Program-made: the position numbers and the translations under genes
Part shown: one piece after another, positions 20,445 through 49,666 of the stretch
How the letters are laid out: each line of letters begins with the position of its first letter
Numbering within the stretch: position 1 is the first letter of the stretch
Notes under the pieces: generated by a model
What the model saw: the letters and a program-made list of their open reading frames with translations, nothing else
The model's database searches: none
What the model was told of the DNA's origin: nothing
NCBI RefSeq assembly: GCF_900105685.1
Contig: NZ_LT629781.1
Coordinates: 682,001 to 746,000, forward strand
Source of the DNA: Verrucomicrobium sp. GAS474
GTDB lineage: Bacteria; Verrucomicrobiota; Verrucomicrobiia; Methylacidiphilales; GAS474
Length of the DNA: 64,000 nucleotides
Reading direction: 5' to 3'

Positions 20445-20690
20445 CTCCGGAGGTAGGGCTCGACCGAAGCGTATCGTTCTACGTCAATACTTTACATCAC
20501 AAGTCGTTGTCAATCAAGCTAAACTTGTTTTAACTCGCCTCCTACTTTCGTGAACTTCCAGGCCCAAATTTGGGCCCAATTCCGACCGCCACCTCCGGAG
20601 GTAGGGCTGAACCTACCGGACAGGTGGGCCCAGTTTTGGGCCCAATTCTTTCGCAGCCCGTGAAAGAATTTGGGCGCTCGATTATGTCCC
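20445..20690. repeat. Cluster of direct repeats and palindromes at the element's left edge
   Basis: CTCCGGAGGTAGGGCT occurs twice (20445-20460 and 20593-20608). A perfect palindrome GGCCCAAATTTGGGCC lies at 20561-20576. TTTGGGCCCAATTC occurs twice (about 20570 and 20636). A hairpin CCCAATTCTTTC / GAAAGAATTTGGG with one bulge lies at about 20640-20674. No gene is visible between 20273 and 20741. Such clusters mark attachment sites, replication origins or recombinase binding sites, and I cannot tell which. Confidence 0.6.
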
Positions 20691-32706: not shown

Positions 32707-32725
32707 GGTGTTACTTGGTATTACC
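32707..32725. promoter_or_regulatory. 8-3-8 dyad operator, left of oriT-like region
   Basis: GGTGTTACTTGGTATTACC is the reverse complement, with one mismatch, of the site at 33051-33069. It resembles the perfect dyad GGTATTAC-TTG-GTAATACC at 49646-49664. It lies upstream of the leftward HTH/ParA operon and probably binds an element-encoded regulator. Confidence 0.6.
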
Positions 32726-33050
32726 CATGCGTCCGCCGAGGCATCACGAAAGAGCGATTATGGCACGATGACGATGAGGCGATGAAATAGGAGAAAACGG
32801 GCATTGCCCGACCATGACGCCATGAAACGACAATGAAGGGCGAGGCCAGTTCGAGCTGATGAGCAGCACGGCGCCATACCGGAACCATCACGAACGAAGC
32901 CGTACCATCGCGGAGCTACCATGAAACGATGATGAATCACGAAAGAACGGCCCGCAATGGCCTCTGGCCTAACTTCGTTAGGGGTGGCGTGTCACTTCTC
33001 CTAAACTCCTAGGTCCAGGCGAATGCTCTTTCGGAAAGGCATTTTCAAAA

Positions 33051-33069
33051 GGTAATACCAGGTAACACC
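33051..33069. promoter_or_regulatory. 8-3-8 dyad operator, upstream of the relaxase gene
   Basis: GGTAATACCAGGTAACACC lies 45 bp before the relaxase ATG, where a repressor could block the rightward promoter. It matches the site at 32707-32725 in inverted orientation at 18 of 19 positions. Confidence 0.6.
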
Positions 33070-33114
33070 TTCTCTTTTTGGACAGAGCCTCCCTTCTTGG
33101 ATTAGGAATGAGGC

Positions 33115-35799
33115 ATGGTCCGTTTTGATCGACCCTGCCGCAACAAGCTCGGCGCGCTGAATTACTTCGCCCAGCACATGGCGAAGGGCGACTACCTGAC
33201 CCAGCATGGCCAATCGGAAATGATCTGGTACGGGAAAGGCGCGGTAAGGCTCGGGCTTTCCGGTCAGGTCGATCCAGAACACTTCGCCCGTCTCTGCGAC
33301 GGGAAGCATCCCGTGACGGGTAAACTTCTCGGAGCGCGGAACAAGGGAGCCGACCGGCGCGTCTGCTACTTCGGTCAGATCTCGGCTCCCAAGGACGTTT
33401 CGCTGGCCTACATGGTGGGCGGAGACGACCGGATCGCCGGATGGTGGGAGGAGGCGGTGCGCGATACGCTCCGCGAAATCGAGGCAACGACGGCGACTCG
33501 CCTTCGCAAGCGAGGGCAGGATGAGGATCACGAGACCAGCAACATGGTCGCCGCCGTCGTGACGCACGACGCCAGCCGGAGCCTCGATCCCCAGCTTCAT
33601 ACCCACGTCTGCATCATGAACGTGACATACGATCCGACGGAAGCCCGCTGGAAGAGTGTTCAACCCCTCGGCTACTTCACGCATCAGGGTTATTTCCGGG
33701 AGGTCTGCTACGCCAAGCTGGCCCAGCGAATGCGGGAGGCGGGTTACGAATTGGAGAAAACCCGACCCATCGGCTTCCACGTCCGGGGAATACCCCCGGA
33801 ACTGCGCCAGCAATTCAGCAAGCGCCGCGAGGCCATCGAGGCAATGGCCGAATCCCTCGGTGTCACGAGCCAGGACGGCTTGCAAGGAATCGCCTCGCGG
33901 AGCCGCGCCTCCAAGCAGCACGTCGATTCCACGATTCTGCGCCAACGGTGGCGAGAGGAGGCCGGGGAAACGGTGAGCTTGGTCAAGGCGGCAATTGCCA
34001 GTGCCGATGGCATTCCGAAACGGGCCGTTGCCATCTCACCAGAACAGGCGTTCACCGAAGCCGAGGCTCACCTTTTCGAGCGGGTGTCGGTGACTGACGA
34101 ACGGATATTGCTCCGGGAAGCCCTCGTCCAAGGCCGGGGCTATGTCGAACTCGACGCCTTCAAGATCATTCTGAAGGATCGGATCGCCACCGGCGACCTC
34201 CTCCGGGAAGGAAGCCGCATCACCTCCCGCAATATGCTCCGGCTGGAACGGGAGTGCGTCGGCTGGGCTCGGCGAGGTCGGAACCGTTGCCCTCGGATGG
34301 GCGACGTCTCCGACCTATCCCCTTCGCTCTCGACCGAGCAGCGCAACGCGGTCGCCTTCATCCTGAACTGCCGGGACCGGGTCATGGGATTGGAGGGGGA
34401 CGCCGGAACCGGGAAGACGACCGTCCTCAAGGAAGTGGTCCGAGGGATCGAGCAGGGCGGAGAGCGCCCCTTCGCCTGCGCCCCGTCCTCCGGCGCTGCC
34501 GCAATACTGCGGCAAGAACTCGTTTCCGATGCCGACACCTTGCAACAGCTGCTGGTCAACTCGTCCCTGCAAGAGAAAGTCCGGGGAAGGACGATCCTCG
34601 TGGACGAGGCGGGCTTGATCTCGACCCGGCAGATGCACGCCCTTTGCGCTCTGGCCGAACGAAACGGCAACCGGCTCCTCCTAGTGGGGGACATCAAGCA
34701 ACACGGCTCCGTCGAAGCCGGGGATGCCTTCCGCGCTTTGCAGAAATACGGCGGAATCGACCTCGCCACCTTGACCGAAATTCACCGGCAACGCGATCCC
34801 GGGTACCGCAAGGCGGTCGAACTCTTCGCCCGGCGGAAGCCGTATGACGCCTTCAAGCAGCTCGAATCGCTCGGAGCGGTCCGGCAGATTCGAGAACCGG
34901 CGCTCCTCTTCGCCCAGGCCGCCGAGGATTACGTGAAGACCCTCCAGCGGGGACACTCGTGCTTGGCCGTTTCCCCGGTCTGGTCGGACATCCATCAATT
35001 CAGCCGCGTGGTGCGAACCCGGCTCAGGGAGGAGGGATTCCTGCAAGGCGAGGATCGGACGTTGACCGCATTCGTTCCCTTCCAGTGGACGAAAGCGGAG
35101 AAGAAGGATGCCCGGAATTATCAACCCGGCGACGTGCTTCAGTTCTATCGGAAGGCGGCGGTTTTCGAGAAAGGGGAACTCCTCCGTTTCGTGGAACGCA
35201 TCGACCGACGCATCATCGTATCCCGCCCCAACGGGGAACGCTTCGTCTTCAACCCAGGGCAAATCACCGGATTCGAGCCGGGCCTGGACCGGGAGGTTTC
35301 CGTCGCCTTGGGAGAAAAGCTCCTCATCCGGGCCAACGACAAGCCTTCCGGCTTGAAGAATGGCGACATTGTCGAAGTGGCTGGGTTCGGAGTCGATGGC
35401 TCTCTCCGATTGAAAGATGGACGAACGCTCCCTTTATTTTTCCGTCAGTTTGCCCACGGCTACGCTACGACTTCTCATGCCGCCCAAGGGAAGACCGTCG
35501 ATCGAGGACTTTTGATGATGACCGACGAAGCATTGAAGGCAGCGAACCTGAAGCAGGCTTACGTCAGTAATTCTAGATTCCGGCTGACCCAGATAGTTTA
35601 CACCTCCGACCGGAAGGAAGCGCGCGAAGCGATGGCCACGCCCGCCGAACGGCAATTGGCGTTGGAACTGAAGCAATCGCATTTCCGGCGCTGGAAGATT
35701 TTCGAGAAGATCGTCGAGGCGGCAGAAGCGTTCCAGGCTCTGCGTCAACGGCGAGTTACCCAGCAGACAACGAAACAGAGAATCGGCTATGTCGCTTAA
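33115..35799 (+). CDS. MobF relaxase-helicase (TrwC/TraI type)
   Basis: This 894-residue protein nicks oriT and unwinds the transferred strand. The relaxase domain (about 1-300) has candidate catalytic tyrosines at 17 and 27 (ALNYFAQHMAKGDYLTQ) and the metal-binding His triad in VTHDASR and DPQLHTHVCIMN. The RecD-like helicase follows: Walker A EGDAGTGKTTVL (about 427), TILVDEAGLIS, LVGDIKQHGSVEAGDAFRAL, and a late TTSHAAQGKTVDRGLL motif. It is the first rightward gene after the oriT-like region and overlaps the next gene by 11 bp. Confidence 0.93.
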   Translation: MVRFDRPCRNKLGALNYFAQHMAKGDYLTQHGQSEMIWYGKGAVRLGLSGQVDPEHFARLCDGKHPVTGKLLGARNKGADRRVCYFGQISAPKDVSLAYMVGGDDRIAGWWEEAVRDTLREIEATTATRLRKRGQDEDHETSNMVAAVVTHDASRSLDPQLHTHVCIMNVTYDPTEARWKSVQPLGYFTHQGYFREVCYAKLAQRMREAGYELEKTRPIGFHVRGIPPELRQQFSKRREAIEAMAESLGVTSQDGLQGIASRSRASKQHVDSTILRQRWREEAGETVSLVKAAIASADGIPKRAVAISPEQAFTEAEAHLFERVSVTDERILLREALVQGRGYVELDAFKIILKDRIATGDLLREGSRITSRNMLRLERECVGWARRGRNRCPRMGDVSDLSPSLSTEQRNAVAFILNCRDRVMGLEGDAGTGKTTVLKEVVRGIEQGGERPFACAPSSGAAAILRQELVSDADTLQQLLVNSSLQEKVRGRTILVDEAGLISTRQMHALCALAERNGNRLLLVGDIKQHGSVEAGDAFRALQKYGGIDLATLTEIHRQRDPGYRKAVELFARRKPYDAFKQLESLGAVRQIREPALLFAQAAEDYVKTLQRGHSCLAVSPVWSDIHQFSRVVRTRLREEGFLQGEDRTLTAFVPFQWTKAEKKDARNYQPGDVLQFYRKAAVFEKGELLRFVERIDRRIIVSRPNGERFVFNPGQITGFEPGLDREVSVALGEKLLIRANDKPSGLKNGDIVEVAGFGVDGSLRLKDGRTLPLFFRQFAHGYATTSHAAQGKTVDRGLLMMTDEALKAANLKQAYVSNSRFRLTQIVYTSDRKEAREAMATPAERQLALELKQSHFRRWKIFEKIVEAAEAFQALRQRRVTQQTTKQRIGYVA

Positions 35800-36154
35800 A
35801 GGAAAGACTTCCCAAAAAATCGCCACACCCTCGGAGAATGCCTTGGAGGGGGCGTGGGGCACCATCGTCCCTCCCTCCACTCCCCTCGACGCCCTGCGCT
35901 TCTCACGGGAGCCGGAGGACATCACTTCCTATGCCTATCGCGTCATCGTGAAGTGGCGATGGAAGCCGGGGCCACCCGAGACAATCTTTCTCATCGCGGG
36001 GCCGGATCTCGTGACTATCACCGGCCACGGCTTGAAGCGGCTCATAGACGCACTCGATGAAACACGCCTCCAGACGGTTCGTCAGGAGGGGCCGGAGGCT
36101 TCCGGACAACGCCCCTGCATTCTTTCCATTCAGATCGAGGAGGGAAGCCGCTAG
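35789..36154 (+). CDS. Small unknown protein coupled to the relaxase
   Basis: A protein of 121 residues whose ATG lies 11 bp inside the end of the relaxase gene, implying translational coupling. The C-terminal half (YAYRVIVKWRWKPGPPETIF, then DLVTITGHGLKRLIDALDET) looks like a compact alpha/beta domain. I do not recognise it. By position it may be a relaxosome or transfer accessory protein. Confidence 0.55.
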   Translation: MSLKGKTSQKIATPSENALEGAWGTIVPPSTPLDALRFSREPEDITSYAYRVIVKWRWKPGPPETIFLIAGPDLVTITGHGLKRLIDALDETRLQTVRQEGPEASGQRPCILSIQIEEGSR

Positions 36155-36201
36155 GCCCCTTTCTCATTTACCCCAACCAACCCTACACCTAGATTATCGT
36201 T

Positions 36202-36555
36202 ATGAGATTAACCGACCTCTCATCCCGCGACCTGTCGGCCTTCATCGCCCTTCACCACAAGCGCAATCAATTAAAAGCCGACTTGGAGGCAGTGTTTGCC
36301 AAACTGGAATCGTTCGGCTCCCGGCGCGGAAATAGTGCCGTCACGAAACGAAAGAAGCGGACTCGCCGGAACAAGCGCCGCTCGTTGGGAGAAGGCATCC
36401 TTCCCCTTCTCAAGGCCGCCGACAGCAAGGGCGTCCATATCGACGCCATCGCCAAGAAGCTGAAACGGGACAAAGCCAGCGTCTCCGCTTGGTTTTACGG
36501 GACGGGAAAAAAGCAGGCGAAGAAGGTGGCTCCGGCGACCTACGCCGCAGCCTAG
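36202..36555 (+). CDS. Small basic winged-helix protein
   Basis: A protein of 117 residues. The N-terminal helix is followed by a very basic linker (TKRKKRTRRNKRRSLGEG) and then a winged-helix-type domain (GVHIDAIAKKLKRDKASVSA, then WFYGTGKK). The domain could bind DNA and the linker could contact the backbone. Similar small proteins occur, as I recall, in Verrucomicrobiota genomes. The gene is monocistronic and AT-richer than the surrounding genes. Confidence 0.55.
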   Translation: MRLTDLSSRDLSAFIALHHKRNQLKADLEAVFAKLESFGSRRGNSAVTKRKKRTRRNKRRSLGEGILPLLKAADSKGVHIDAIAKKLKRDKASVSAWFYGTGKKQAKKVAPATYAAA

Positions 36556-36570
36556 CCTTTACGGGGGCTC

Positions 36571-37170
36571 TTAGTCGGAGACGCAGAAATACAAAAGGTG
36601 CATCCCGTTGAGTTGTTCTCCCATAGGCGACTTGTAGGAGTAGGTCACGACCACGGGAACACTGGTTCCCGACGCATGGCGGATCGTGGTATCGCACATC
36701 TCCTCCTGAGTATAGACAGCGCGAAGCGTCGTCGCCGAATAAGCGGGCGGCAGGAATTTGGTGAACTCGCTGAGGAGACAGAGCGGTAGCTCCAAGGTCT
36801 TGCCGGGCCTGAAACTGTACTTCACCCCCTTAAAGGGCGGAAGATCGAAGGGAACCTTTGTTTTTCCATCCCCCGCGATCACGGCCCAGTGGAAGTCATC
36901 GGCAAAGGCGTCGCGGTTGTTGACGAAAACACCCATAAGTGTGGGGCCGGTATTGATCAGGTCTTTGGTTTCCAGACCATGCAGGTCGATGTCGGGCCGC
37001 ACCTGTGCCTCCAGCCCCGCCAGGATCTTCTTGCTGATCTGGTCGTTGCCGAACATTTGGAAATAGCCGATGACCACGGCGGGGAAGCCGATAAGCGCCA
37101 GCAGCAGGCTCAGGCATCCTTGCCGGGCGGGAAGAGTCCATCTCCGATATTGCTTTCGGTTGGGGAACAT
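36571..37170 (-). CDS. Unknown protein with one N-terminal membrane segment
   Basis: I start at the ATG at 37170 because the frame upstream looks like noise. The protein of about 199 residues has a hydrophobic segment SLLLALIGFPAVVIGYFQMF near the N-terminus and a C-terminal soluble domain of strands (HWAVIAGDGKTKVPFDLPPF, GTSVPVVVTYSYKS). I do not recognise the family. It is leftward, downstream of the ClpB-like gene, from which it is 52 bp away, so the two may be co-transcribed. Confidence 0.5.
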   Translation of the reverse strand: MFPNRKQYRRWTLPARQGCLSLLLALIGFPAVVIGYFQMFGNDQISKKILAGLEAQVRPDIDLHGLETKDLINTGPTLMGVFVNNRDAFADDFHWAVIAGDGKTKVPFDLPPFKGVKYSFRPGKTLELPLCLLSEFTKFLPPAYSATTLRAVYTQEEMCDTTIRHASGTSVPVVVTYSYKSPMGEQLNGMHLLYFCVSD

Positions 37171-37222
37171 TCCCGATGGAAGCACACCCTCCCTCACCCG
37201 TCGCGCTCTCTTTGATTCGCTT

Positions 37223-38122
37223 CTATTCAAATTGCAGTCGTCCCCGAGCCCGGTCGGCGACGATGCGCCTGGCGGTATTGCACTCGGCCAATAGAGTCTC
37301 CGTGAGGGCGTCCTGCAAATGGCGTTCCACAGCATTCCGCATCGGTCTCGCCCCCAGCGTCCGGTGATAGCCCTCGCGGACCAGGAACTCCAAGGCCGAC
37401 TCCTCGATGGTGAAATGGAATCCCATCTTCGCCAATCGCTCCACCTCCCGACTCACCATCAATTCGCAGATCTCCCGCTGCACCTGAAACGTCAGTCGCG
37501 TAAAGACCACCTTCTCACTGATGCGAGCCACCAGTTCGGGCCGCAGCGTTTGATCGACGCGGCGCAATACCGTTCGCTCGATAGTCGCCAGTGCCGAATG
37601 CTCCATCCGCATCGCCTCGGCGGCCCCGATGTTCGACGTGAAAACGATGTAGTAGCCGTTGAGGCTCCTCGTCTCGCCTGTTGCCAAGGTGATACGCCCC
37701 GCATCGAGGATTTGCAGGAAGAGATCCAGCACCAAGGGATGTGCCTTTTCCATTTCATCGAAAAGAAGCGTCCCCCGGTCGGCCTTGGCCAACGCCCGCC
37801 CCAGCATCCCGATTTCCGTCTCGCTCTGCCCCAATAAGAGCCCCACGGAGGATTGGTTCTGAAACTCCGACATATCGAAGCGATGGCAATGGCCCGGCCC
37901 AAAGAGGAAATCGGAAAAGCACACGGTAATTTCCGTCTTCCCTACGCCCGTCGGCCCAACGAAGAGGAACGATCCCTTGGGCCGATTCGGATGGGCCAGC
38001 CCCAGTTCCCCTCGTTTGAGAACGGACTGCACGCGGGGAAGAACATGAGCCTGTCCCCGGATGTTGTTCCGCAGGTAAGCGTCGAGATTCCGTAGCTTGT
38101 CGATGTTTGAAGTGGTTTTCAT
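37223..38122 (-). CDS. Single-domain ClpB/ClpA-like AAA+ ATPase
   Basis: A protein of 299 residues from the ATG at 38122. It corresponds to only the second AAA+ module of Clp/Hsp100 proteins: Walker A FVGPTGVGKTEITV, Walker B GTLLFDEMEKAHPLVLDLFL, sensor-1 YIVFTSNIGAAEAM, and the C-terminal small domain with YHRTLGARPMRNAVERHLQD. There is no N-domain, first AAA+ ring or ClpP-binding loop visible. It is divergent from the virB2-like operon. Its role in an element with no VirB11 is open, for instance in pilus or T4SS assembly. Confidence 0.85.
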   Translation of the reverse strand: MKTTSNIDKLRNLDAYLRNNIRGQAHVLPRVQSVLKRGELGLAHPNRPKGSFLFVGPTGVGKTEITVCFSDFLFGPGHCHRFDMSEFQNQSSVGLLLGQSETEIGMLGRALAKADRGTLLFDEMEKAHPLVLDLFLQILDAGRITLATGETRSLNGYYIVFTSNIGAAEAMRMEHSALATIERTVLRRVDQTLRPELVARISEKVVFTRLTFQVQREICELMVSREVERLAKMGFHFTIEESALEFLVREGYHRTLGARPMRNAVERHLQDALTETLLAECNTARRIVADRARGRLQFE

Positions 38123-38177
38123 GGGCCGAAAATAAGGCCGCTTTTCGCGGTTTTTCGGCTCATCGACAGGCATCTCT

Positions 38178-38246
38178 CACTGCTCGTTTCAACCCGCTTC
38201 TATCCGCCCGCTGCTCGCTGAGGGGGAAGCTGCTTTTCGTGATGAA
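38178..38246 (+). promoter_or_regulatory. Conserved leader upstream of the virB2-like operon
   Basis: CACTGCTCG, then 18 bp, then a block containing CGCTGAGGG and CGTGATG directly before the GTG start. The same arrangement occurs before the virB10-like gene at 46811-46886. This indicates a shared promoter or regulator site for the two secretion operons. Confidence 0.6.
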
Positions 38247-38540
38247 GTGGAAAGCGTGACGATCAACCTTCTCACCACTTCGGTTTTCCTGGCCCAGTCG
38301 ACCGGCAGCACCAGCCAGCTCCGCCAGGGCTTCAACATGGCCCTCGGGATCATGTTCATGTTCGGGTTCATCTGGGGCGTCGTGAAGATCTGGGGCGGGG
38401 CCAACGCCATCGGCAAGGGCGATCCCGACGGCAAGGCCGGGATCATCGCCGGAATCATCATCGCCGCCGCCGCCTCCATCATGGGCGCCCTCTTCGCCAT
38501 CTTCGGCCTGAGCGGCGGTGCCCTCACCCCCACGTTCTGA
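38247..38540 (+). CDS. VirB2/TrbC-like pilin subunit
   Basis: A protein of 97 residues with two strongly hydrophobic segments (FNMALGIMFMFGFIWGVVKI and IIAGIIIAAAASIMGALFAI) joined by a short polar loop with Gly/Asp/Lys, the layout of VirB2/TrbC pilins. The GTG start at 38247 is assumed. It is the first gene of the T4SS operon and overlaps the VirB3-like gene as TGATG. Unlike typical VirB2 there is no long cleavable signal peptide. Confidence 0.65.
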   Translation: MESVTINLLTTSVFLAQSTGSTSQLRQGFNMALGIMFMFGFIWGVVKIWGGANAIGKGDPDGKAGIIAGIIIAAAASIMGALFAIFGLSGGALTPTF

Positions 38541-38884
38541 TGAGTGGCACCCATCCCCACCTCCGGCTGACCGATACCAATGCCGCCGACGATTCGGGCG
38601 GCTCGGTCTGGGGCCTCGACGGAAACCTGTTCCTTCCGGTCGTGGCCTCGGCAACGCTCTCGATTGGCGTCCTCCTCGTCCTCTTCGCAGCGTTCCATGT
38701 GAACTGGCTTGCCAGCGCCCTGATCGCCGCCGTTCCGTTTTCGGGAACGCTCGCCTACGTCCTCCTCCTCAAGCAGAGTAAGCCCCCCGGTTACGACCTC
38801 GACTTGTTCGATCTCTGGATCAACGGGCGGGGCTTCTCGCTCGTCCAACGCGGCCAAACCCTCCACCGGAGACCCCTCTCGTGA
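38540..38884 (+). CDS. VirB3/TrbD-like membrane protein
   Basis: A protein of 114 residues with two membrane segments (LFLPVVASATLSIGVLLVLF and LASALIAAVPFSGTLAYVLL) and a polar C-terminal tail. VirB3 proteins are small, sit next to VirB4 and stabilise the inner-membrane complex. The gene overlaps the VirB2-like stop (TGATG) and the VirB4-like start by 4 bp. The assignment comes from size, topology and position. Confidence 0.65.
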   Translation: MSGTHPHLRLTDTNAADDSGGSVWGLDGNLFLPVVASATLSIGVLLVLFAAFHVNWLASALIAAVPFSGTLAYVLLLKQSKPPGYDLDLFDLWINGRGFSLVQRGQTLHRRPLS

Positions 38885-41502
38885 AAGGCCACGACAAAGC
38901 GCCCAATGGGCATTTCGCGGAAGACCTGATCCTTTACGGGAATTTGGAAACCGGCTCGACCGCCAGCAAGGGGTTCGTGCTGGAACCGCCCGACCTCCAC
39001 AACGCCTCGATCTCCCTCCTGAACGAGTTTCAGGATAAGATCCGCATCTTCCTCGCCACGCTTGGGCCGCGCCAGCGGGCGCAGATCCAATGGACGTGTA
39101 ATTCCGACTACCGGGCCGAGTTGACCCGGTATTACGAGGAGACGGCGAAGACCGCCGATCCCTACGTGCGCCGCGTCCGCAACGAGCGGTTCACCCGCTA
39201 CTGGCAGCGGATGCTGAACCGCACCCTGCGTCGGGAACAGTTGGTTCTCTTCATTTCTCAGGACATCGACAGCTATTCCGGCGCGTTGAAGAACCGGGCG
39301 GCCCTGTCCGATTACTACGCCAGCACGCTGAAGCAGCTCCGTAACGATTTCGGAGAACTGGGCTCCACCTTGGGAACAGTCTTCGGGAACGGGACGACGC
39401 TGCGGCCCATGTCCGACCTCGACCATTTCTCCTACACCCTTCGTTTTCTCAACCCGACCTTGGCCGACAGTCTCGATCTCCGTCCCGAGGAATTGTACCA
39501 CCCCGATCTCTCGATTCAGGAACTCTGCTGGAACGGGGATGGCGTCGGCATCAGCGAGAAGACCGGGTTCTATCTCGACGGCCACTACCACAATATCTTC
39601 TCCCTCAAGCGGTGGCCTCAGAAAACCTATCCGGGAATCATTCACCGTCTCACCGGCCTCCCCTTCCTCGATTACCAACTCACGATCAACATCGAACCGA
39701 TCCCTGTCCGGCAGGAAATCGGCAAGGAGGAAAAGGCGATGGATCGCCTCCGGGGCGATTTCGAGTCGGAGCGAAAGCAGTCCATCGCCGTCGCCCTGAA
39801 GAAGAAGGAGCGGAAGATCGACTCCCTGGCGCAGGGGTTCGCGTTCCCGTTCGACGTTCAATACTTGATCCGGGTCTGGGATCGCACGGAGACCGACCTC
39901 CATGCGAAGTGCGCTGCGGTGAGGAACGCCGTTCAGAATATGAATGGGGCCCAGCTTTATGAAACGGCCCTTTCCTCGACCGCGAAACGCCTCTTCTTTG
40001 CCACTTGGCCCGGCTGGACGGGAAGCAGCTATCGGCATCGGAATCTCTACGCCGAGGACCGCTATCTGGCCGATATGTTGCCGCTCTCATCGACCTTCAC
40101 GGCCCATCTGAAGGAAGCCGAGGCACTCTACGACGGCACAAACGGAAATCTCGTCGGTGTCCGCACCTTCCTGGGCGGGACGCCCCAGCACGCCGTCCTC
40201 CTCGGCATGACCGGCGCGGGGAAATCCTACTTCATGGACGACCTTCTGGCGCAGACCCAGCTCTACTTCGATTACAACGTCATCGTCGAAGAAGGGCTTT
40301 CCTACAAGCGATTTACCGAAAGCCTCGACCAGTCGCCGATCATCGTCCACCCGGACGGGGAACTCACTCTCAACTACCTCGACACCCAGGCCCTCCCACT
40401 CACCCAGCTCCATCTGGCAACGGCAGTGGCGCTCGTTTCCCGGATGATCGGAGAATCTTCCGATTCCGAAAAGCAACAGCTTCGGCAGGCCCAGATCGGT
40501 CAATACATCAACCAACTTTACATCGACACCTTTGCGGAATGGACGGGGAAGCATTCCGATCTCTTGCCCCAGATCCAGCGTCAGGCGTGCGCCGTCCACC
40601 GTTGGCGGCGGGAAAAGATGGAGACGGGAAGCACCTTCCTCGAAGCCTTCGCGGAACTCCGCGATCGGACGGCAACCAATGACGACGAAGCGCAGTCTTT
40701 CGTTGCCGGGGTCTCCGAATCGGAGATCACCCGTTTCATCAAGGAGCCCGATACGGAACGCCTCGTCATGGCGGCGGGATACAGCGCGTTCCGTCCCGAG
40801 GACTATCCCACCCATTCGGCGCTGATCGACCTGATGTACTTCTCCCGGTTCCCCGAACACCGGAAGGAGGATATCGACCATCTCGCCACGCTCCTGACCG
40901 CGTGGACCGCCAGCGGCCAATACGGAAAGCTCTTCGACGGGAAGACGAATACCTCCCTCACGGGCAAGGTTGCCCACTTCGAGTTGGGATACATTCCCGA
41001 ACAAGCCGTCGAACTGAAGACAGCGGCGGGACTCCTCATCTCCGGTTTCACCCGCCAGCACATCATCACCCTGCCCCGACATCTCTGGAAGCGGATCATC
41101 TTCGAGGAAGTGGCCCGGTTCCTCGACGTGCCGGGGGGCGAGAAAATCGTCGCCGAAAGCTATGCCCAACTTCGGAAGTTCAACTGCTGGACTATTTCGA
41201 TCGTTCAACAGTACAGCAAGTTCAAGGGAACGCGCATTCGGCCCGTGGTGATGGGAAACAGCAAGCAGTTCTTCCTCATGCGCCAATTTGACCGCTCCGA
41301 CCTGGAGGACATTTCCCAGGACATCCATCTTCCCGAGGTGACGGTCGAATCGATTCAGAACTACCCCCTGCCGGAACAGCAGGCCCCCGGTCAGAAGTTC
41401 TCCTCTGTCTGCTACTACTCCCCGACGACGCAACCCGCGACGTGCGGGACGATCCGGAATATTTCCGCTCCCGAACCTGAACCCCACCTCCTCGCCGTAT
41501 GA
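38881..41502 (+). CDS. VirB4/TraC-type conjugation ATPase
   Basis: An 873-residue ATPase of the T4SS inner-membrane complex. Walker A is LLGMTGAGKSYFMDDLLAQT (about residue 442). A VirB4-type downstream segment is ILPRHLW-like TLPRHLWKRIIFEEVARFLD, followed by CWTISIVQQYSKF. The N-terminal half (about 1-420) is the usual divergent membrane-associated region. It energises pilus biogenesis and substrate transfer. It ends with a 4-bp overlap with the next gene. Confidence 0.88.
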   Translation: MKGHDKAPNGHFAEDLILYGNLETGSTASKGFVLEPPDLHNASISLLNEFQDKIRIFLATLGPRQRAQIQWTCNSDYRAELTRYYEETAKTADPYVRRVRNERFTRYWQRMLNRTLRREQLVLFISQDIDSYSGALKNRAALSDYYASTLKQLRNDFGELGSTLGTVFGNGTTLRPMSDLDHFSYTLRFLNPTLADSLDLRPEELYHPDLSIQELCWNGDGVGISEKTGFYLDGHYHNIFSLKRWPQKTYPGIIHRLTGLPFLDYQLTINIEPIPVRQEIGKEEKAMDRLRGDFESERKQSIAVALKKKERKIDSLAQGFAFPFDVQYLIRVWDRTETDLHAKCAAVRNAVQNMNGAQLYETALSSTAKRLFFATWPGWTGSSYRHRNLYAEDRYLADMLPLSSTFTAHLKEAEALYDGTNGNLVGVRTFLGGTPQHAVLLGMTGAGKSYFMDDLLAQTQLYFDYNVIVEEGLSYKRFTESLDQSPIIVHPDGELTLNYLDTQALPLTQLHLATAVALVSRMIGESSDSEKQQLRQAQIGQYINQLYIDTFAEWTGKHSDLLPQIQRQACAVHRWRREKMETGSTFLEAFAELRDRTATNDDEAQSFVAGVSESEITRFIKEPDTERLVMAAGYSAFRPEDYPTHSALIDLMYFSRFPEHRKEDIDHLATLLTAWTASGQYGKLFDGKTNTSLTGKVAHFELGYIPEQAVELKTAAGLLISGFTRQHIITLPRHLWKRIIFEEVARFLDVPGGEKIVAESYAQLRKFNCWTISIVQQYSKFKGTRIRPVVMGNSKQFFLMRQFDRSDLEDISQDIHLPEVTVESIQNYPLPEQQAPGQKFSSVCYYSPTTQPATCGTIRNISAPEPEPHLLAV

Positions 41503-42320: not shown

Positions 42321-42588
42321 GCTCCTTCTCTTACTCGTCGCCGCCTGCGGCTTGGGCGGTTGCGCCTCCCAACCGACCTATGGTCCCTCCAAGGACGGCG
42401 CAGCCGATTACAACCTGGGCCGTTCCGATGCCGTGAAGCAGCAATATTGGATCATCCAGAATCAGCAGAAGGCCCTCCAGACGAAACCCCAGCCAAGAGT
42501 GTCGTACTACACCTTCACGACCGGGGGAACGACGACCAACGGTGTCACCACCGTTCCGACCACCGAATACCTCCGTATCGAAAACTAA
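42310..42588 (+). CDS. VirB7-like small lipoprotein
   Basis: A protein of 92 residues from the ATG at 42310, which lies 11 bp inside the end of the previous gene. It has a lipoprotein signal (LLLLLVAACGLGGC) and a short soluble part rich in Gln, Tyr and Thr. Small lipoproteins of this kind stabilise the VirB9/VirB10 outer-membrane core complex. The name is by position and type only. Confidence 0.6.
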   Translation: MRNKLLLLLVAACGLGGCASQPTYGPSKDGAADYNLGRSDAVKQQYWIIQNQQKALQTKPQPRVSYYTFTTGGTTTNGVTTVPTTEYLRIEN

Positions 42589-42591
42589 CCC

Positions 42592-43392: not shown

Positions 43393-43401
43393 GAGCTTCC
43401 C

Positions 43402-44514
43402 GTGGAAATCAGCGACTTCGTCCCGACGCTCCAGCCGATGGCGGAGCAGATCAGCACCGATCTCCGGTTCGTCTGCTTTTTCGTCCTGACCGCCTCGATC
43501 ATCGTCCGGGCCTCCCGCACCAGCCACGGCAACGTCGTCGGGCTGATGAAGCCGATCATCACGGCGGCGGTCCTCTGCGGTCTTATTGCTACCCTGCCGG
43601 TCTGGTTCAACGCGGCTCGGGACGAGTTTTGGAATATCGCCGTCCTCATCCGCTCGCAGTTTGCCGACGACCCTACTTCGACCAGTTCGGCCCTGATGAA
43701 GCTCATCAAACCGCCCGACAACGGTTTCAACTGGCTCGATATTGGGAATTCGTTGATGAAGGCGGTCCAATTCGCCCTTGGTTGGCTCGTCGTCTGCATC
43801 GGGGGAATGGTGCAGCTCCCCATGATGATCGGGCAGTTCGTCATGGAATGTCTTTGCTATATGTTCCTCCCCATCGCCCTTTCGCTCTTCTCGATGGAAA
43901 GCACGAAGGGGCTGGGGATGCGGTACGTCCAACAGACGCTGGCGATCCTGGCCTGGCCCATCGGGTTCGCCGTGGTCGATCTGGTGGGGTATTCGATTCT
44001 GACGGGCCCAATTTCGGCGGGAAGCGCCCTTGCCCTGGCCTACGGCGCGGCGACGAAGTTCACTCCGGCCACGCTTCTCCTCGGATGCATTACCGCCGTC
44101 TGGCTCATCCTGGGGAGTCTCGCCGTGCCGATTGTGATGCAGTTGCTCTTTTGTTCGGGAACGCCACTTTCGTCGTCGGTCGGAAAGTCGATTGAATTAG
44201 GCATGGCGGCGGGAGGCATCAGTAGACTGTTGTCCGGGAAGCTCGGTGCGGCTCCTTCCTCCTCCGGCCCGTCGTCGCCCGGAACCCCGGGATCGAGCAA
44301 CGGACCGTCCTCCTCGCCACCGACACCGCCTTCCCCAACACCGGCTGGATCTGGGATGCCCCCGCAACTCGGGACAACACAACAGGCGGCCCTCATGCCC
44401 TTATCCGCGCCGGTGAAACCGCAGAAGCCACCACCTTCCTCCGATCCTTCTCTCGACCGTTTCGCCCTCGCCGTCAAACAACTGAACCAGATCCCGCTTG
44501 CGATCTCCTACTGA
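43402..44514 (+). CDS. VirB6/TrbL-like polytopic membrane protein
   Basis: A protein of 370 residues beginning with GTG. Several membrane segments are seen (FVCFFVLTASIIVR, IITAAVLCGLIATLPVW, AVQFALGWLVVCIGGMV, LLLGCITAVWLILGSLAVPI). A Pro/Ser/Gly-rich C-terminal tail of about 90 residues follows. VirB6/TrbL proteins form part of the inner-membrane channel and guide DNA. Position between VirB5-like and VirB8-like genes supports the call. Confidence 0.72.
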   Translation: MEISDFVPTLQPMAEQISTDLRFVCFFVLTASIIVRASRTSHGNVVGLMKPIITAAVLCGLIATLPVWFNAARDEFWNIAVLIRSQFADDPTSTSSALMKLIKPPDNGFNWLDIGNSLMKAVQFALGWLVVCIGGMVQLPMMIGQFVMECLCYMFLPIALSLFSMESTKGLGMRYVQQTLAILAWPIGFAVVDLVGYSILTGPISAGSALALAYGAATKFTPATLLLGCITAVWLILGSLAVPIVMQLLFCSGTPLSSSVGKSIELGMAAGGISRLLSGKLGAAPSSSGPSSPGTPGSSNGPSSSPPTPPSPTPAGSGMPPQLGTTQQAALMPLSAPVKPQKPPPSSDPSLDRFALAVKQLNQIPLAISY

Positions 44515-44515
44515 G

Positions 44516-45169
44516 ATGAATGCCGATACCCTCCGCACCACCCACGTCCCCGCCGGGCTTCCCCCTCGGCAATCTCGTCCCGCTCCTACGGTCGTCCGTC
44601 TCTTTTCCGATCACGGCTGGGCCGCCCGGATGTGGTTCGCCGTGGCCGTCTGCGCTCTTTTTGCCGCATTGGTGGAACCTTATCTAGTGATTGCCGCCTA
44701 CCGGACACGGGAGCGGGTCGTGATCCTCGACGAGGCAGGGACGTTTCACGTCTCGCCGCTCCTCAATTTCGAGGATGCCACCCAGCTTCATACCTCCCAA
44801 GCGATTCTCGCCTGCCTCGCCCTCTTTCAGAAGAACCCGACCGGATACGATTATCCCGACCTGTTGGAGAAGATGTACCTGCCCGATGCCTTGGAAAAAG
44901 CGAAGGCATTACGAAGCGCCCAAGCCGCCGAGTTTTCAGCGAAACAGATCCATCAGAAAGTCGAAATTCAGAAAATCGACATTCTCCAAACACGGAACGA
45001 TCTCGTCCTGGTCGAAGTGACAGGGCAGCTCCCTCGCGTCGGTGTCTTCAACGGCCAGCCGTTTCCCGAGGCCCCGGCATTCAAAGTCCGCTTCACCCTC
45101 GTCCGTAACCCCAACCTGACCGCCAACGGTCGCTTCCCCCTCGCTGTATGGAAATTCGATCTGCTTTGA
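44516..45169 (+). CDS. VirB8/TrbF-like inner-membrane protein
   Basis: A protein of 217 residues from the ATG at 44516. The N-terminal cytoplasmic part is followed by a membrane helix (MWFAVAVCALFAALVEPYLV) and a periplasmic domain of about 150 residues with helix-then-strands order (SQAILACLALFQKNPTGYDY, IDILQTRNDLVLVEVTGQL). This matches VirB8/TrbF architecture. Its end overlaps the following VirB9-like gene by 22 bp. Confidence 0.68.
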   Translation: MNADTLRTTHVPAGLPPRQSRPAPTVVRLFSDHGWAARMWFAVAVCALFAALVEPYLVIAAYRTRERVVILDEAGTFHVSPLLNFEDATQLHTSQAILACLALFQKNPTGYDYPDLLEKMYLPDALEKAKALRSAQAAEFSAKQIHQKVEIQKIDILQTRNDLVLVEVTGQLPRVGVFNGQPFPEAPAFKVRFTLVRNPNLTANGRFPLAVWKFDLL

Positions 45170-46044
45170 TTCTGCTGTGTGTCTTCGTCACCTCAGTCTG
45201 GGCCGATACCCGGCCCGACTTCCGGGCGATCAAGCAATTCCCGCTCGATGACCGGACGGTGTACACCATCCTCATTTCGAGGGACGAGCCGACCACGATC
45301 ATGTTTCCTAGTGCCCTGACGGCATTGGAAGGGGCCGGGATCACGACCGACCCGGAAGCCTCAGCACCGGTCTTCCTCAATTACACGAAGGGACGGTATT
45401 ACTTTTCGGTTCGGGCGTTGCAGGAGGCGGCGACGGGACACCTCAACGTCATCTGGAACAAACACACCTATGTCCTGACGTTCCAGACCGATCCCCATCC
45501 GTTCAATGCAGTGACGTTCTATCAGCTGACCGATCCCCGCCCGGAGTTGGGACAGCGGGAGGGAGTCGGCCCGACGAAGCTGCTGGGACTACTCGACCGA
45601 GCGAAGGCGTATCATCTCATTCAGGGCCAATATCCCGAGGCGTTGCCTCAGATCGACACGGCACAGCCCCATCGCCGGATGTTGTACAAGGATTTCGAGG
45701 TCGAGATCGCGGAGGTGTTCCGGTTTGACCCGGAGGACACACTGATTTTCAAGCTCCTGCTCTACAACACTAGCGATAAGGAAATCTGCTACCTGCCTCA
45801 GACGTTGGCGGTACGGGTGGGAACGAATGTCTATTACACTTCGCTCCCCGACGCTTCAGGCGTGTTGCCTCCGGGGCGGATCGATCCGAAAACGCAGAAG
45901 ATCGAGCCCAGCGTCTCGCTGGCTTATTTTGCGGTGACGGGCTCGCCGGACGGAGGAAGGAACAACCTCGCAGTCGATAATCCGTTCAATGTCATCGTGA
46001 CCCGCGCTCCCTCACCCGTCACGTTGGACGCGGCGACAAAGTAG
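45148..46044 (+). CDS. VirB9/TrbG-like periplasmic protein
   Basis: A protein of 298 residues with a signal peptide (SALILLCVFVTSVWAD). The N-terminal strand-rich domain starts with FRAIKQFPLDDRTVYTILIS, close to the VirB9 opening that binds VirB10. The C-terminal part is also beta-rich (TLIFKLLLYNTSDKEICYLP). VirB9/TrbG helps form the outer-membrane ring. The ATG at 45148 lies within the previous gene, which suggests coupling. Confidence 0.65.
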   Translation: MEIRSALILLCVFVTSVWADTRPDFRAIKQFPLDDRTVYTILISRDEPTTIMFPSALTALEGAGITTDPEASAPVFLNYTKGRYYFSVRALQEAATGHLNVIWNKHTYVLTFQTDPHPFNAVTFYQLTDPRPELGQREGVGPTKLLGLLDRAKAYHLIQGQYPEALPQIDTAQPHRRMLYKDFEVEIAEVFRFDPEDTLIFKLLLYNTSDKEICYLPQTLAVRVGTNVYYTSLPDASGVLPPGRIDPKTQKIEPSVSLAYFAVTGSPDGGRNNLAVDNPFNVIVTRAPSPVTLDAATK

Positions 46045-46048
46045 GCCC

Positions 46049-46336
46049 CTACTCGAATAACTCGGCCACCTTGACCCGCAAGGCGCGGGCCAGGGCAATG
46101 ATTTCGACGTCGTTGACCGTCCGCTGACGCAATTCGATCTTGTTGATCGAGCTGCGGCTGAGAAGGACGCCCTGCGATGCCAGCCGCCCTGCGATGTCTT
46201 CCAGGGACGCCTTGGGAGTCAATTTGAGGCGGATCGCCCGGACTTTCGCCCCGATCACGTTCTGTTTTCCGTCCCGAGCGCGGGTCCGTTCCCGTTTCGG
46301 GCTCTTCCTTGAAATGGATTTGCTCTTCTGAAGCAC
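46049..46336 (-). CDS. Xre-family helix-turn-helix regulator
   Basis: A protein of 95 residues. A basic N-terminal tail precedes a Xre/Cro-type HTH (IGAKVRAIRLKL, SLEDIAGRLASQGVLLSRSS, INKIELRQRTVNDVEIIALA, RALRVKVAELFE). It is convergent with the VirB9-like gene and divergent from the small gene at 46410, across a 19-bp dyad. It probably regulates itself and the second T4SS operon. Confidence 0.8.
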   Translation of the reverse strand: MLQKSKSISRKSPKRERTRARDGKQNVIGAKVRAIRLKLTPKASLEDIAGRLASQGVLLSRSSINKIELRQRTVNDVEIIALARALRVKVAELFE

Positions 46337-46366
46337 ATCTTGACTTAGCCGACTTGACGTCCAAAT

Positions 46367-46385
46367 ATGTTCCTCGGAAGAACAT
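46367..46385. promoter_or_regulatory. 8-3-8 dyad between the Xre gene and its divergent neighbour
   Basis: ATGTTCCTCGGAAGAACAT has arms ATGTTCCT and AAGAACAT (7 of 8 paired) around CGG. It lies between the starts of two divergent genes, the expected place for a Xre operator. The half-site sequence differs from the GGTATTAC dyads, so a different regulator is implied. Confidence 0.55.
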
Positions 46386-46409
46386 CAAAGACCATTTCCC
46401 CTGGACGCC

Positions 46410-46796
46410 ATGAAAACGAGCATCGGTACTGAGTCCTTACCAATCGGAGATCCCTCTACCCGAAAAAAGCCCTTCGTTAAGGCCAAGGCAGGTTTCTGGG
46501 CTCCGGCGGACGTTCAGGAAAGTATCCTGGCCCTCGTAGAAAACGGCACCTACGCCGATCAATCCAAGGCCATCGTCGGTCTGCTGCGGAAGGCGCTCCG
46601 CGACGATACGCTTATACCGCCACCCCTCCGCAAACGTCTCGACCACCTATCCACCGATCTGGATCGGACGCCTGAAGCCATCGTGCGCCTCTGCGTCGAG
46701 GGCATCCTCGAAATGCTCGACGGCCCCGAGGCGACGATTCCCCTGCTGATCGAGGAAGTCCGCTTGCGCCAGCGACGAGGGCAAAACGGCACCTAG
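46410..46796 (+). CDS. Small unknown protein, possibly DNA-binding
   Basis: A protein of 128 residues, highly charged. WAPADVQESILALVENGTYA followed by DQSKAIVGLLRKAL has the spacing of a ribbon-helix-helix-like region. I do not recognise it. It follows the Xre-site dyad and precedes the virB10-like leader. It may act in regulation of the second T4SS operon. Confidence 0.5.
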   Translation: MKTSIGTESLPIGDPSTRKKPFVKAKAGFWAPADVQESILALVENGTYADQSKAIVGLLRKALRDDTLIPPPLRKRLDHLSTDLDRTPEAIVRLCVEGILEMLDGPEATIPLLIEEVRLRQRRGQNGT

Positions 46797-46810
46797 ATTC
46801 CGCGCAAGCC

Positions 46811-46886
46811 CACTGCTCGCCTGAATCCTCTTTTACTCGCCTGCCGCACGCTGAGGGAAAAGTTCGTTCCGTGATGGAATGGAGGC
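46811..46886 (+). promoter_or_regulatory. Conserved leader upstream of the virB10-like operon
   Basis: CACTGCTCG, then 18 bp, then CGCC-type block with CGCTGAGGG and CGTGATGG, ending at the GTG start. It matches the leader at 38178-38246. GGAGG lies only one base before the GTG, an unusually close ribosome-binding site. Confidence 0.6.
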
Positions 46887-47888
46887 GTGATCAGCGCCCG
46901 CCAATTTCTCGACTTCTTCCAGACGAAGACCGGTCAGTTTGTCGCTTTCGCCGCCGTGGTGACGGTGGCCGGGGGACTCTATTACGGGTTGCGAACCTCC
47001 GCGGCTACCTCCGCATCGACTCCGACACTCCCAGCGAAGGAAGCAGCGGCACAGGATCATCCCATCACGGTGAACCGAGAAGGAACGCCCCTGAAGCTTC
47101 CCGACATACTGAGCCTTCCCGGAGTCTCCAAAGCCGCTCCTAAGCCACCTGCCCGCCTCCCGATCACCCTTTACGATGGCGGCCCAGACGGGGCGGAGGT
47201 CTCGGACACCTATGCCCCCTACGGGCGACTCATTCCCTGCGAGACGGTCATTACGATCGACTCGGCCAAGATTGAGACGCCGATCATCGGTTTTGTCACC
47301 GAGGACGTCTATCACAACGGGCGGCTCGTCATCCCGGCAGGGGCCGAAGTCCACGGCAAAGCCCGCACCGATCGTTCCCGCGAGCGGATCGCCAGCGACA
47401 ACCAGTGGTACATCGTCTGGCGGACGACCGATCAGCTCAACGGGGCCGAACTGGTCGTCAGCGGACTCGCTCTCGATATGGAACGGGACTACGCCAACGG
47501 ACGCTGGGCCATCACCGACGGCTCCGCCGGCCTTCGGGGCGATCTCATCAAGAGCGACAACTGGGCGGAGATCAAATTGTTCGCAGCCACCTTCCTGAGT
47601 GCAGCGGCGGGCGGGCTTCAGGACAACCAGAACATCTTCAATCCGATGACGGGCGGATACCAACAAAGCCCTCTCGATTCTCCGAAGAACGCAGCCCTCC
47701 AGGGCACCAGTGCCGTCCTGAACCAATACGCCCAGCAAATCGCCGATTCGATCAAGCAGAACGGCTTTTACGTCCGGGTGCCTGCCGGGAAGCAATTCTA
47801 TCTCTACGTCATGCAGACCCTCGATCAGGAGAAGGCTCACAAGGCCGAGTCCTTGACCCATTCACCCACGAAATCCCCCACCCCATGA
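46887..47888 (+). CDS. VirB10/TrbI-like protein
   Basis: A protein of 333 residues. A short cytoplasmic N-terminus leads to one membrane helix (FVAFAAVVTVAGGLYYGL), then a Pro-rich linker, then the VirB10/TrbI beta-barrel domain (LIPCETVITIDSAKIETPII, HNGRLVIPAGAEVHGKAR, and the late NGFYVRVPAGKQFYLYVMQT). VirB10 bridges the inner and outer membrane core complexes. The GTG start follows a shared leader. It is translationally coupled (ATGA) to the next lipoprotein gene. Confidence 0.8.
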   Translation: MISARQFLDFFQTKTGQFVAFAAVVTVAGGLYYGLRTSAATSASTPTLPAKEAAAQDHPITVNREGTPLKLPDILSLPGVSKAAPKPPARLPITLYDGGPDGAEVSDTYAPYGRLIPCETVITIDSAKIETPIIGFVTEDVYHNGRLVIPAGAEVHGKARTDRSRERIASDNQWYIVWRTTDQLNGAELVVSGLALDMERDYANGRWAITDGSAGLRGDLIKSDNWAEIKLFAATFLSAAAGGLQDNQNIFNPMTGGYQQSPLDSPKNAALQGTSAVLNQYAQQIADSIKQNGFYVRVPAGKQFYLYVMQTLDQEKAHKAESLTHSPTKSPTP

Positions 47889-48463
47889 AATGGCTCTATT
47901 CCCTCCCCCTGGTCGCGCTGGCCGGGTGCAGCACCACCCCCACCGAAACAACGGTCCCCATTCGGGAGAATCAGGTCGCAGGAACCGCGCTCGACCTTCA
48001 GGACACGGAGAATGTCCGGTATAGCGAAGCCCTGAAGGCCTACCCCGTGGGCCGTTATGAAGACCCGAACAATCCCTACGTCCTTCACGAGGCCCACACG
48101 ATCTACCGAGCCGAGCAGCCTCCTCGCTGGAATCTCAATCCCAACGCCCCGACCGCCGTCCCCCTCGGGCCGACCGTAGCGGTCGCCGATCCGGCGAAGC
48201 AGACAGCAGCCCTGAGCGGGGAACTGGAACAGAAGATCCAGCAACAGAACCAGCTTCTTCAGGCAACGGCGGAACAGAACGACCGGCTTTCGCAGGAAAT
48301 CGATCGGATGAAGACCGAGGCCGACAAGGCTCAGGCCGCTGCCGCCGCGAACGAGGCGTTGCGGCGTCAGGTGGCCGACCAGCAAGCCCAGCTCGATGTC
48401 CTGAAAACCCAAGCCGACAAGACTCCGCCCCCCCGGAAGGCGTGGTGGGAGCTGTGGCATTAA
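47885..48463 (+). CDS. Lipoprotein with coiled-coil C-terminus
   Basis: A protein of 192 residues beginning MKWLYSLPLVALAGC, a clear lipobox (LAGC). The C-terminal half is a coiled coil rich in Gln, Ala and Glu (QNQLLQATAEQNDRLSQEID). It overlaps the VirB10-like stop as ATGA. It may be an outer-membrane part of the T4SS, possibly contacting VirB10. Confidence 0.6.
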   Translation: MKWLYSLPLVALAGCSTTPTETTVPIRENQVAGTALDLQDTENVRYSEALKAYPVGRYEDPNNPYVLHEAHTIYRAEQPPRWNLNPNAPTAVPLGPTVAVADPAKQTAALSGELEQKIQQQNQLLQATAEQNDRLSQEIDRMKTEADKAQAAAAANEALRRQVADQQAQLDVLKTQADKTPPPRKAWWELWH

Positions 48464-48483
48464 CTCATCTCAAAGACCCCTCT

Positions 48484-48717
48484 ATGATCATCACCCTGCC
48501 CATACCGGACGACGTGGCCCGCGAATACTTTGTGGCCGCCGAAAAACTGACCACGCATCTCGCCCCGCTGGGGCGCTCCCCGGACGCCCGCACCCTCATG
48601 GTAATGGCGCTTTCCTCGATGACGGCCGAGGAGATGGTCGGCCACTTCGACCTGGCCCTCCGCAGCATCGTGGGAGTTCCGATCCCCAGCGAAGTATCAC
48701 CCGATTTTCAGAACTGA
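48484..48717 (+). CDS. Small unknown protein
   Basis: A 77-residue protein from the ATG at 48484. It reads as a small helical domain (PIPDDVAREYFVAAEKLTTH, then MALSSMTAEEMVGHFDLALR). I do not recognise it. It lies between the coiled-coil lipoprotein and the gene at 48793 and is likely part of the same transcript. Confidence 0.5.
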   Translation: MIITLPIPDDVAREYFVAAEKLTTHLAPLGRSPDARTLMVMALSSMTAEEMVGHFDLALRSIVGVPIPSEVSPDFQN

Positions 48718-48792
48718 ACGATTCGTGTGAGAAAGGCGTCCCGGCCCACACGCTAAAGAAATGGCCAGGCGCATCCAACCCAGGAGGCCGAT

Positions 48793-49218
48793 ATGGCATT
48801 GAAGTTGAAGAATCAGCCCTCTTCCCCGGCGGGAGAGGCTCCCGAGGAGGCGGAAGGCCGCGCTCCCCGGATTAATGAGAAGGTCGATCAGAAGCTGACC
48901 TCGTTCATGGAGGAGAACCAGAAGGCGACGGAATACTATCGCAAACTGGTTCGGGAAGATCCGGAACGGGCCGTGCGGACGATCATGCTCGCCAAGCTGA
49001 ACAAGTACGAGGATCAGATGCGTCTCGTCGAGAAGCAGATGCCCCAGGTGAAGCAGTGGATCGATCAGAACCCCGGTATGCGGGAGAAGATCGAGGCCCG
49101 GATCAAGGACGTGAATCCGATCTACAAGGAGATCGCGTTCGTGAACGAGGCCGTGAAGATGCGCGGTCGCCTCGACTTTTCCCCGTCACAGGGAGTCCAG
49201 GCGAGTCTCGCGGCCTGA
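48793..49218 (+). CDS. Small helical unknown protein at the end of the T4SS operon
   Basis: A 141-residue protein with a good GGAGG ribosome-binding site 7 bp upstream. It is highly charged and helical, with coiled-coil pattern (FMEENQKATEYYRKLVREDP, EDQMRLVEKQMPQVKQWIDQ). I do not recognise it. It is the last gene before a strong terminator, so it closes the second T4SS transcript. Confidence 0.6.
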   Translation: MALKLKNQPSSPAGEAPEEAEGRAPRINEKVDQKLTSFMEENQKATEYYRKLVREDPERAVRTIMLAKLNKYEDQMRLVEKQMPQVKQWIDQNPGMREKIEARIKDVNPIYKEIAFVNEAVKMRGRLDFSPSQGVQASLAA

Positions 49219-49225
49219 AACGAAA

Positions 49226-49260
49226 GAACCGCCCCGGAAGTCCGGGGCGGTTCATATTTC
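49226..49260 (+). terminator. Rho-independent terminator after the T4SS operon
   Basis: GAACCGCCCCGGA pairs with TCCGGGGCGGTTC around a very short loop, followed by ATATTTCC. It lies directly after the last gene of the operon. Confidence 0.8.
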
Positions 49261-49336
49261 CTTGGATGGGAAGCCACTCTCGATTTTTGGCTTCATGGAG
49301 TTTATGAATATGGGATTTTATTTGCATTCCCCCTTT

Positions 49337-49666
49337 TTACCCTCCGTTTGGACTCCTATTAGGAAGTGGGTCATTGTTGGCTGGCGGCCCCTGATCCCGC
49401 ACGTCGCGACTGCGCGCCACTTTGAGGATTTGAACCAACTGCGGCCATTCCAAGATGTCGGATTCGATCATCTTATCGACCATAGCCATACATTCGCGGA
49501 CATATTTTCCGAAAGTATATCCAATAAGGTCAGCATCTCTCTTCGCACGATTCCGCATCTCAGGCGGATATTTAACGGAAGTTGGATTGACTGGGAGCAT
49601 GGAGAACATAATAACATAAACGTTCCCATCGGGAATTATATTTAGGGTATTACTTGGTAATACCAT
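49337..49666 (-). CDS. Small DNA-binding-like protein (RHH-like)
   Basis: A frame of 109 residues, AT-richer than the surroundings. The stretch VNPTSVKYPPEMRNRAKRDA followed by LIGYTFGKYVRECMAMVDKM resembles a ribbon-helix-helix strand and two helices. The first ATG (49664-49666) overlaps the 19-bp dyad, so the ATG at 49609 or 49600 is likelier and the gene may be about 87-90 residues. It could bind the neighbouring dyad and autoregulate. Confidence 0.5.
   Translation of the reverse strand: MVLPSNTLNIIPDGNVYVIMFSMLPVNPTSVKYPPEMRNRAKRDADLIGYTFGKYVRECMAMVDKMIESDILEWPQLVQILKVARSRDVRDQGPPANNDPLPNRSPNGG
49646..49664. promoter_or_regulatory. Perfect 8-3-8 dyad at the right end of the element
   Basis: GGTATTAC-TTG-GTAATACC is a perfect inverted repeat with a 3-bp centre. 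The same core (TTACTTGGTA-T-TACC) occurs at both sides of the oriT-like region (32707-32725 and 33051-33069). It lies between the divergent genes at 49337-49666 and 49712-49999, so one of those may encode its ligand. Confidence 0.65.

Follow-up and report, generated by a model that had tools for sequence, protein, structure and literature searches.

A candidate operator at the transfer genes of an integrative and conjugative element of Verrucomicrobium sp. GAS474, with a ribbon-helix-helix protein as its probable binder

The window analyzed here is a 64,000-nucleotide stretch of the Verrucomicrobium sp. GAS474 genome (contig NZ_LT629781.1, positions 682,001 to 746,000), and coordinates are given relative to its first nucleotide (Table 1). 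An integrative and conjugative element (ICE) of approximately 62.7 kb lies in a tRNA-Asn gene and extends from position 20439 to approximately 83.1 kb, in window coordinates extended rightwards. The element has the features by which an ICE is recognized: an integrase gene at the tRNA gene, a direct repeat at both ends, and genes for a relaxase, a coupling protein, and VirB4. GGGCCCAA repeats are present near both att ends and are likely the arm sites of the integrase. A tRNA-Arg gene at 7548 was also considered as the attachment site; no repeat was found there, and the match to tRNA-Asn was found instead. Comparison with the empty site in two congeners was uninformative, as the left flank is not conserved.

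Table 1. Positions of the genes, repeats, and putative operators discussed in the text (window coordinates, extended rightwards where necessary)
Feature	Coordinates	Strand	Evidence or remarks
Left attachment repeat AAATGGCTCCGGAGGTAGGGCTCGA, 25 bp	20439..20463	+	Second copy in the tRNA-Asn 3' end (83072), adjacent to the integrase
TraG/TraD-type coupling protein, StbA-like operon	29625..31097	-	PF12696, E 1.9e-08
ParA/MipZ-like ATPase, related to TraL(RP4)/StbB	31564..32289	-	PF09140, E 2.8e-07; NCBIfam TraL NF010461, E 3.6e-10 (under the cut-off of that family)
Small HTH-like protein in the position of StbA, opening the divergent operon	32286..32660	-	
Putative operator 1	32707..32725	-	GGTAATACCAAGTAACACC in the orientation of the StbA-like gene; GTG 56 bp downstream of the centre
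ATGA/ACGATGA repeats, strand-biased	32765..32936	+	Candidate sites for the StbA-like protein
oriT nic-region candidate	32968..32992	+	Hairpin CCTAAC-TTC-GTTAGG, then GGTGGCGTGT
Putative operator 2	33051..33069	+	GGTAATACCAGGTAACACC in the orientation of the relaxase gene; ATG 55 bp downstream of the centre
MOBF (TrwC/TraI-type) relaxase-helicase	33115..35799	+	PF08751, E 1.3e-74
Small ribbon-helix-helix (RHH) protein, presumed binder and autoregulator	49337..49600	-	Alignment, profiles, AlphaFold2 model
Putative operator 3	49646..49664	.	Perfect 8-3-8 palindrome; from its centre, 55 bp to the RHH start codon (49600), 57 bp to that of the winged-helix gene (49712)
MerR/Xis-like winged-helix protein, divergent RHH partner	49712..49999	+	AlphaFold2 pLDDT 85; homologues in most related elements
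Tyrosine integrase	81795-82961		

The relaxase gene and a leftward operon are separated by a gap of 454 bp, which contains putative operators 1 and 2 on either side of a hairpin. The arrangement resembles that of the StbAB/TraKL operons of R388 and RP4 in that the ParA-like ATPase is encoded by the second gene of an operon that diverges from the relaxase gene across oriT, and this synteny is found in most relatives. The first gene of the operon matched no family in Pfam or NCBIfam, and ATGA repeats are present beside oriT; in the intergenic region, against an expectation of 1.8, ATGA occurs 11 times on the plus strand and 0 times on the minus strand. Placement of oriT between operators 1 and 2 is supported by comparison of sequences, because in most of the relatives compared, changes in the hairpin stem are compensatory and GGTGGCGTGT is almost invariant. 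A second MOBF relaxase, 34% identical to that of the ICE, is encoded elsewhere in the genome (2561950-2564691, at 2.56 Mb), and no TAC-N3-GTA dyad was found within 600 bp upstream of its gene.

The RHH gene and its divergent winged-helix neighbor lie in the middle of the element. We place the start of the RHH gene at the ATG at 49600 and not at 49666, as the homologues all begin with M-x-P-x-x-P-x-S-V-K or a close variant; the third dyad therefore lies upstream of this gene and not within it. A ribbon-helix-helix (MetJ/Arc) fold, consisting of an N-terminal DNA-contacting strand and two helices, is supported for the product by an AlphaFold2 model in which residues 3-12 are extended and residues 13-25 and 30-46 are helical. 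The model matched the RHH domain of PutA with a Z score of 5.7 over 47 residues and Arc with a Z score of 5.2, and CopASO was also matched. Profile matches were to CopG, VapB, and PutA chains (E 0.0045 to 0.76); among the named RHH families of Pfam and NCBIfam, none scored above the cut-off, and one weak NikA-like match was found among the homologues. As for the winged-helix protein, Foldseek matched its model to RacA, BldC, Pukovnik Xis, and RdfS, with a probability of 0.99 for Pukovnik Xis and BldC and 0.89-0.91 for RdfS, at E values above 0.05. The modeled fold is thus of the Xis type, but it matches the transcription regulators BldC and RacA equally well. Two further observations concern the surroundings of this gene pair. 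In the tra region, the C-terminal half of a small protein (46410-46796) weakly matches an RHH profile (E of about 6e-4). After the third dyad, the ICE carries metal-resistance-type cargo (50023-63393), including an RND pump, a P-type ATPase with a heavy-metal-binding domain, and a multicopper oxidase.

A first-pass annotation of this DNA had noted the same 8-3-8 dyad on both sides of oriT and again at what it took to be the right end of the element. All three copies are indeed present, and in 100 dinucleotide-shuffled versions of the window the consensus was matched in none (0/100; the expectation for a loose form is 0.01). The copy at 49646-49664 is a perfect dyad, GGTATTAC-TTG-GTAATACC, which reads GGTATTACCAAGTAATACC in the orientation of the RHH gene; the 8-3-8 description fits the copies at 32707 and 33051 less strictly, since 2 of the 8 arm positions are mismatched in these imperfect palindromes. 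The latter two share one sequence except for a single base and face in opposite directions, with GGTGTTACTTGGTATTACC on the forward strand at 32707-32725. The supposed terminal position of the third copy was mistaken: the ICE spans 20439 to the repeat at 83072, and this dyad, along with the RHH/winged-helix pair, is found mid-element, 32 kb from the integrase gene. Many unrelated copies in the genome would have spoken against the annotation's proposal, but the whole genome (3.76 Mb) has no other match with fewer than three mismatches, all three dyads lie inside the ICE, and just two matches with three mismatches, unrelated to the ICE dyads, occur elsewhere. A pattern scan of public genomes (257 billion bases) returned 21 exact matches, near the chance estimate of about 15.

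Relaxases that are 50-61% identical to that of the ICE are encoded in other genomes of the same order, which are draft genomes with some elements split over contigs; named plasmid relatives of the relaxase are only about 30% identical and were left out of the operator comparison. In about 10 related elements, a TAC-N3-GTA dyad precedes relaxase and StbA-like genes. Nearly all related relaxase genes are preceded by this dyad or by a direct-repeat variant, the arms being specific to the element and the same sequence standing before the StbA-like gene. Between elements, the arms change in concert and their complementarity is kept. A divergent RHH/winged-helix pair with a dyad in between was identified in six elements (two in G015, one in G051, two in G010, and the element described here). 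When whole genomes were scanned with the exact core of one element's operator, matches were found at relaxase, StbA-like, RHH, and winged-helix genes. The element on G010:C15 has no RHH gene visible on its own contig, and the operator search led to a previously undetected RHH/winged-helix pair on G010:C10 with an identical core, which completes the G010:C15 set. Between the two genes of this pair (approximately 158960-159000) is a 39-bp perfect palindrome, GGTGTTACTTAGGACTACTAAGTAGTCCTAAGTAACACC, which contains both half-site types in one array.

The arrangement is not the same in all groups of elements. On G042:C164, on G024:C56, and in the second element of G010:C4, the RHH gene ends the tra operon and is without an operator of its own, and the oriT-flanking operators are kept. 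On G045:C146, G042:C145, and G042:C79, oriT is flanked by direct repeats (ACTACC, approximately 10 bp apart) in place of 8-3-8 dyads, and the RHH gene again lies within the tra operon and lacks an operator. Across element groups, the RHH proteins are only 20-35% identical. On G015:C108 (75430-77730), a single open reading frame combines a relaxase N terminus (59% identical) with a VirB4-like match, a possible misassembly or fusion.

In the ICE, the dyad centres lie 55, 56, 55, and 57 bp upstream of the start codons of, respectively, the MOBF relaxase gene, the divergent StbA-like/ParA-like/coupling-protein operon, the RHH gene, and its divergent winged-helix neighbor. At the relaxase and StbA-like promoters, the arms are asymmetric and share one orientation relative to the respective gene. 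In the related elements, the centre of the TAC-N3-GTA dyad is located at -42 to -46 relative to the relaxase start, at -43 to -47 relative to the StbA-like start, and at -44, -45, -55, or -56 relative to the RHH start, the longer distances corresponding to one additional helical turn. Across elements, relaxase, StbA-like, and RHH starts thus lie in nearly all cases 42-47 bp from the centre or, as in the ICE described here, 55-56 bp from it, although certain start codons were set by homology and single values may be off. It is the RHH start with which the operator keeps its phase (-44 to -56), not the winged-helix start (-57 to -104). A dyad in the interval -70 to -35 precedes 23 of the 574 open reading frames on the element contigs; a relaxase, StbA-like, RHH, or winged-helix protein is encoded by 21 of the 23. 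Some related elements display dyad arrays stepped by 10 bp. Scans for sigma-70 promoters at the dyad sites identified no canonical promoter. Because the spacing to the start codons is constant and the dyad-bearing reading frames are almost all the genes named above, the dyads are predicted to be transcriptional promoter operators, with fixed spacing to starts as their signature.

The presence of a site at a gene does not by itself reveal the binding protein, because all three candidate genes, those for the RHH, StbA-like, and winged-helix proteins, carry the site and autoregulation cannot single one out. We therefore compared divergence. Distances between operators correlated with distances between RHH proteins in Mantel tests that are post hoc and based on small samples (r 0.55, p 0.005, n = 8; r 0.62, exact p 0.003, n = 7), and they did not correlate with distances between StbA-like proteins (p 0.18 and 0.19) or between winged-helix proteins (p 0.38). 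As operator divergence follows that of the RHH protein and not that of the winged-helix protein, the former is the better candidate of the two. Judging from these comparisons, the RHH protein is probably the binder of the dyads.

One alternative is that the StbA-like protein binds the dyads, as StbA of plasmid R388 binds repeats at its own promoter and represses this and several other plasmid promoters (PMC3937220, PMC3098194). The StbA-like gene has a site in nearly every element in which both are found, and the oriT-flanking sites are kept in a group whose RHH gene has no operator of its own. Against this stands the lack of tracking between StbA-like and operator divergence. Moreover, the nearest StbA-like proteins (54% identical; G045 and G042) go with direct-repeat sites, while operators of our type accompany other StbA-like proteins, and the ATGA repeats, which are common to our element and the relatives with the nearest StbA-like protein, are better candidates for direct repeats of the StbA type. 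We consider binding by the StbA-like protein unlikely. We give less credence still to a role of the flanking dyads as accessory sites of the oriT relaxosome (TraY/TrwA/MobC-like) with a secondary effect on promoters. Two dyads do flank the oriT hairpin, and RHH accessory proteins such as MobC of RA3 fulfill both functions (PMC4175270), but the distance from the dyad to the hairpin varies between elements while that to the start codon is conserved, and the third dyad is 17 kb from oriT. Finally, that the winged-helix protein is an excisionase which binds the three dyads and links transfer to excision is very improbable: it has an Xis-like fold, a dyad precedes its gene (and sites are found just 5' of a second copy in G015 and G051), and the excisionase RdfS governs excision and transfer functions of another ICE (PMC11963761), but a whole-genome dyad search found no copy at either att end, the integrase gene, or its promoter, the gene is mid-element, its divergence and its start show neither the tracking nor the phasing seen for RHH, one element with another type of operator has a 57%-identical copy, and RdfS sites have no consensus motif. 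The initial proposal that one product of the gene pair binds all three sites is probably correct, with the RHH protein favored by its divergence, and the direct coupling of transfer to excision that accompanied it is not supported.

Our preferred reading, to which we assign a probability of roughly 0.75, is that the ICE has an autoregulated transfer-control regulon with the dyad as its operator and, most likely, the RHH protein as the binder. Counting against this reading are the group of elements whose RHH gene has no operator although the dyads around oriT are kept, the group with direct repeats around oriT, the low identity of the RHH proteins across groups, and the lack of a canonical sigma-70 promoter at the sites. 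Arc and PutA each occupy palindromic operators as pairs of dimers. The RHH protein would bind the dyad as a dimer of dimers, with one dimer on each 8-bp arm, and would do so in or against the core promoters of the RHH gene and the divergent winged-helix gene, of the relaxase gene, and of the StbA-like/ParA-like/coupling-protein operon across oriT. It would most likely repress all of these promoters; repression seems likelier than activation by analogy and from the promoter-proximal position of the sites. DNA processing would thus be held off in the integrated state, and entry into a naive cell would result in a burst of expression, by analogy with R388. It is also conceivable, though doubtful, that a single class of operator places the winged-helix protein, acting as an excisionase, under the same control as the relaxase and coupling protein, in which case the RHH protein would gate both DNA processing and excision through transcription and not through binding at att.

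Conjugation control in this bacterial order seems to be little studied, and no description turned up in a narrow literature search. Sequence alone here provides a candidate operator and a probable repressor that would set the transfer state of the family, and the exact DNA sites and a small protein are now directly testable. The arms and the RHH protein covary between elements, including several within one genome, which also makes them a natural set for the study of how cross-regulation between related elements is avoided.

In R388, a network of StbA, KorA, ArdK, and TrwA establishes a repressed steady state with an overshoot on entering a new cell (PMC3937220). The circuit predicted here resembles that of R388 (PMC3937220, PMC3098194) in that DNA-binding proteins encoded by the element would negatively autoregulate and control further promoters of the element, and also in that an stbAB-like operon diverges from the MOBF transfer genes across oriT. 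The two differ in the distribution of tasks: in R388, StbA, KorA, and ArdK act on multiple promoters and the RHH-type TrwA only on its own, whereas here one operator marks the relaxase gene, the StbA-like/coupling-protein operon, and an RHH gene 17 kb away. MobC of RA3 (IncU) is an RHH autorepressor whose target, close beside oriT, is an imperfect palindrome within the core of its promoter (PMC4175270), and our candidate is similar in being a predicted RHH protein with a palindrome near its own promoter. However, RA3 is a MOBP system in which mobC shares one operon with the relaxase gene, while our element has a MOBF relaxase and a remotely encoded candidate regulator. RdfS of ICEMlSymR7A binds attP without a consensus site, autoregulates, and affects transfer (PMC11963761); our element likewise encodes a winged-helix protein with an Xis-like fold, but its dyad follows a clear consensus and is not found at the att ends. 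The known kind to which the predicted circuit belongs is that of the plasmid repressor circuits of R388 and RA3, and within that kind the dyad circuit of this ICE is new.
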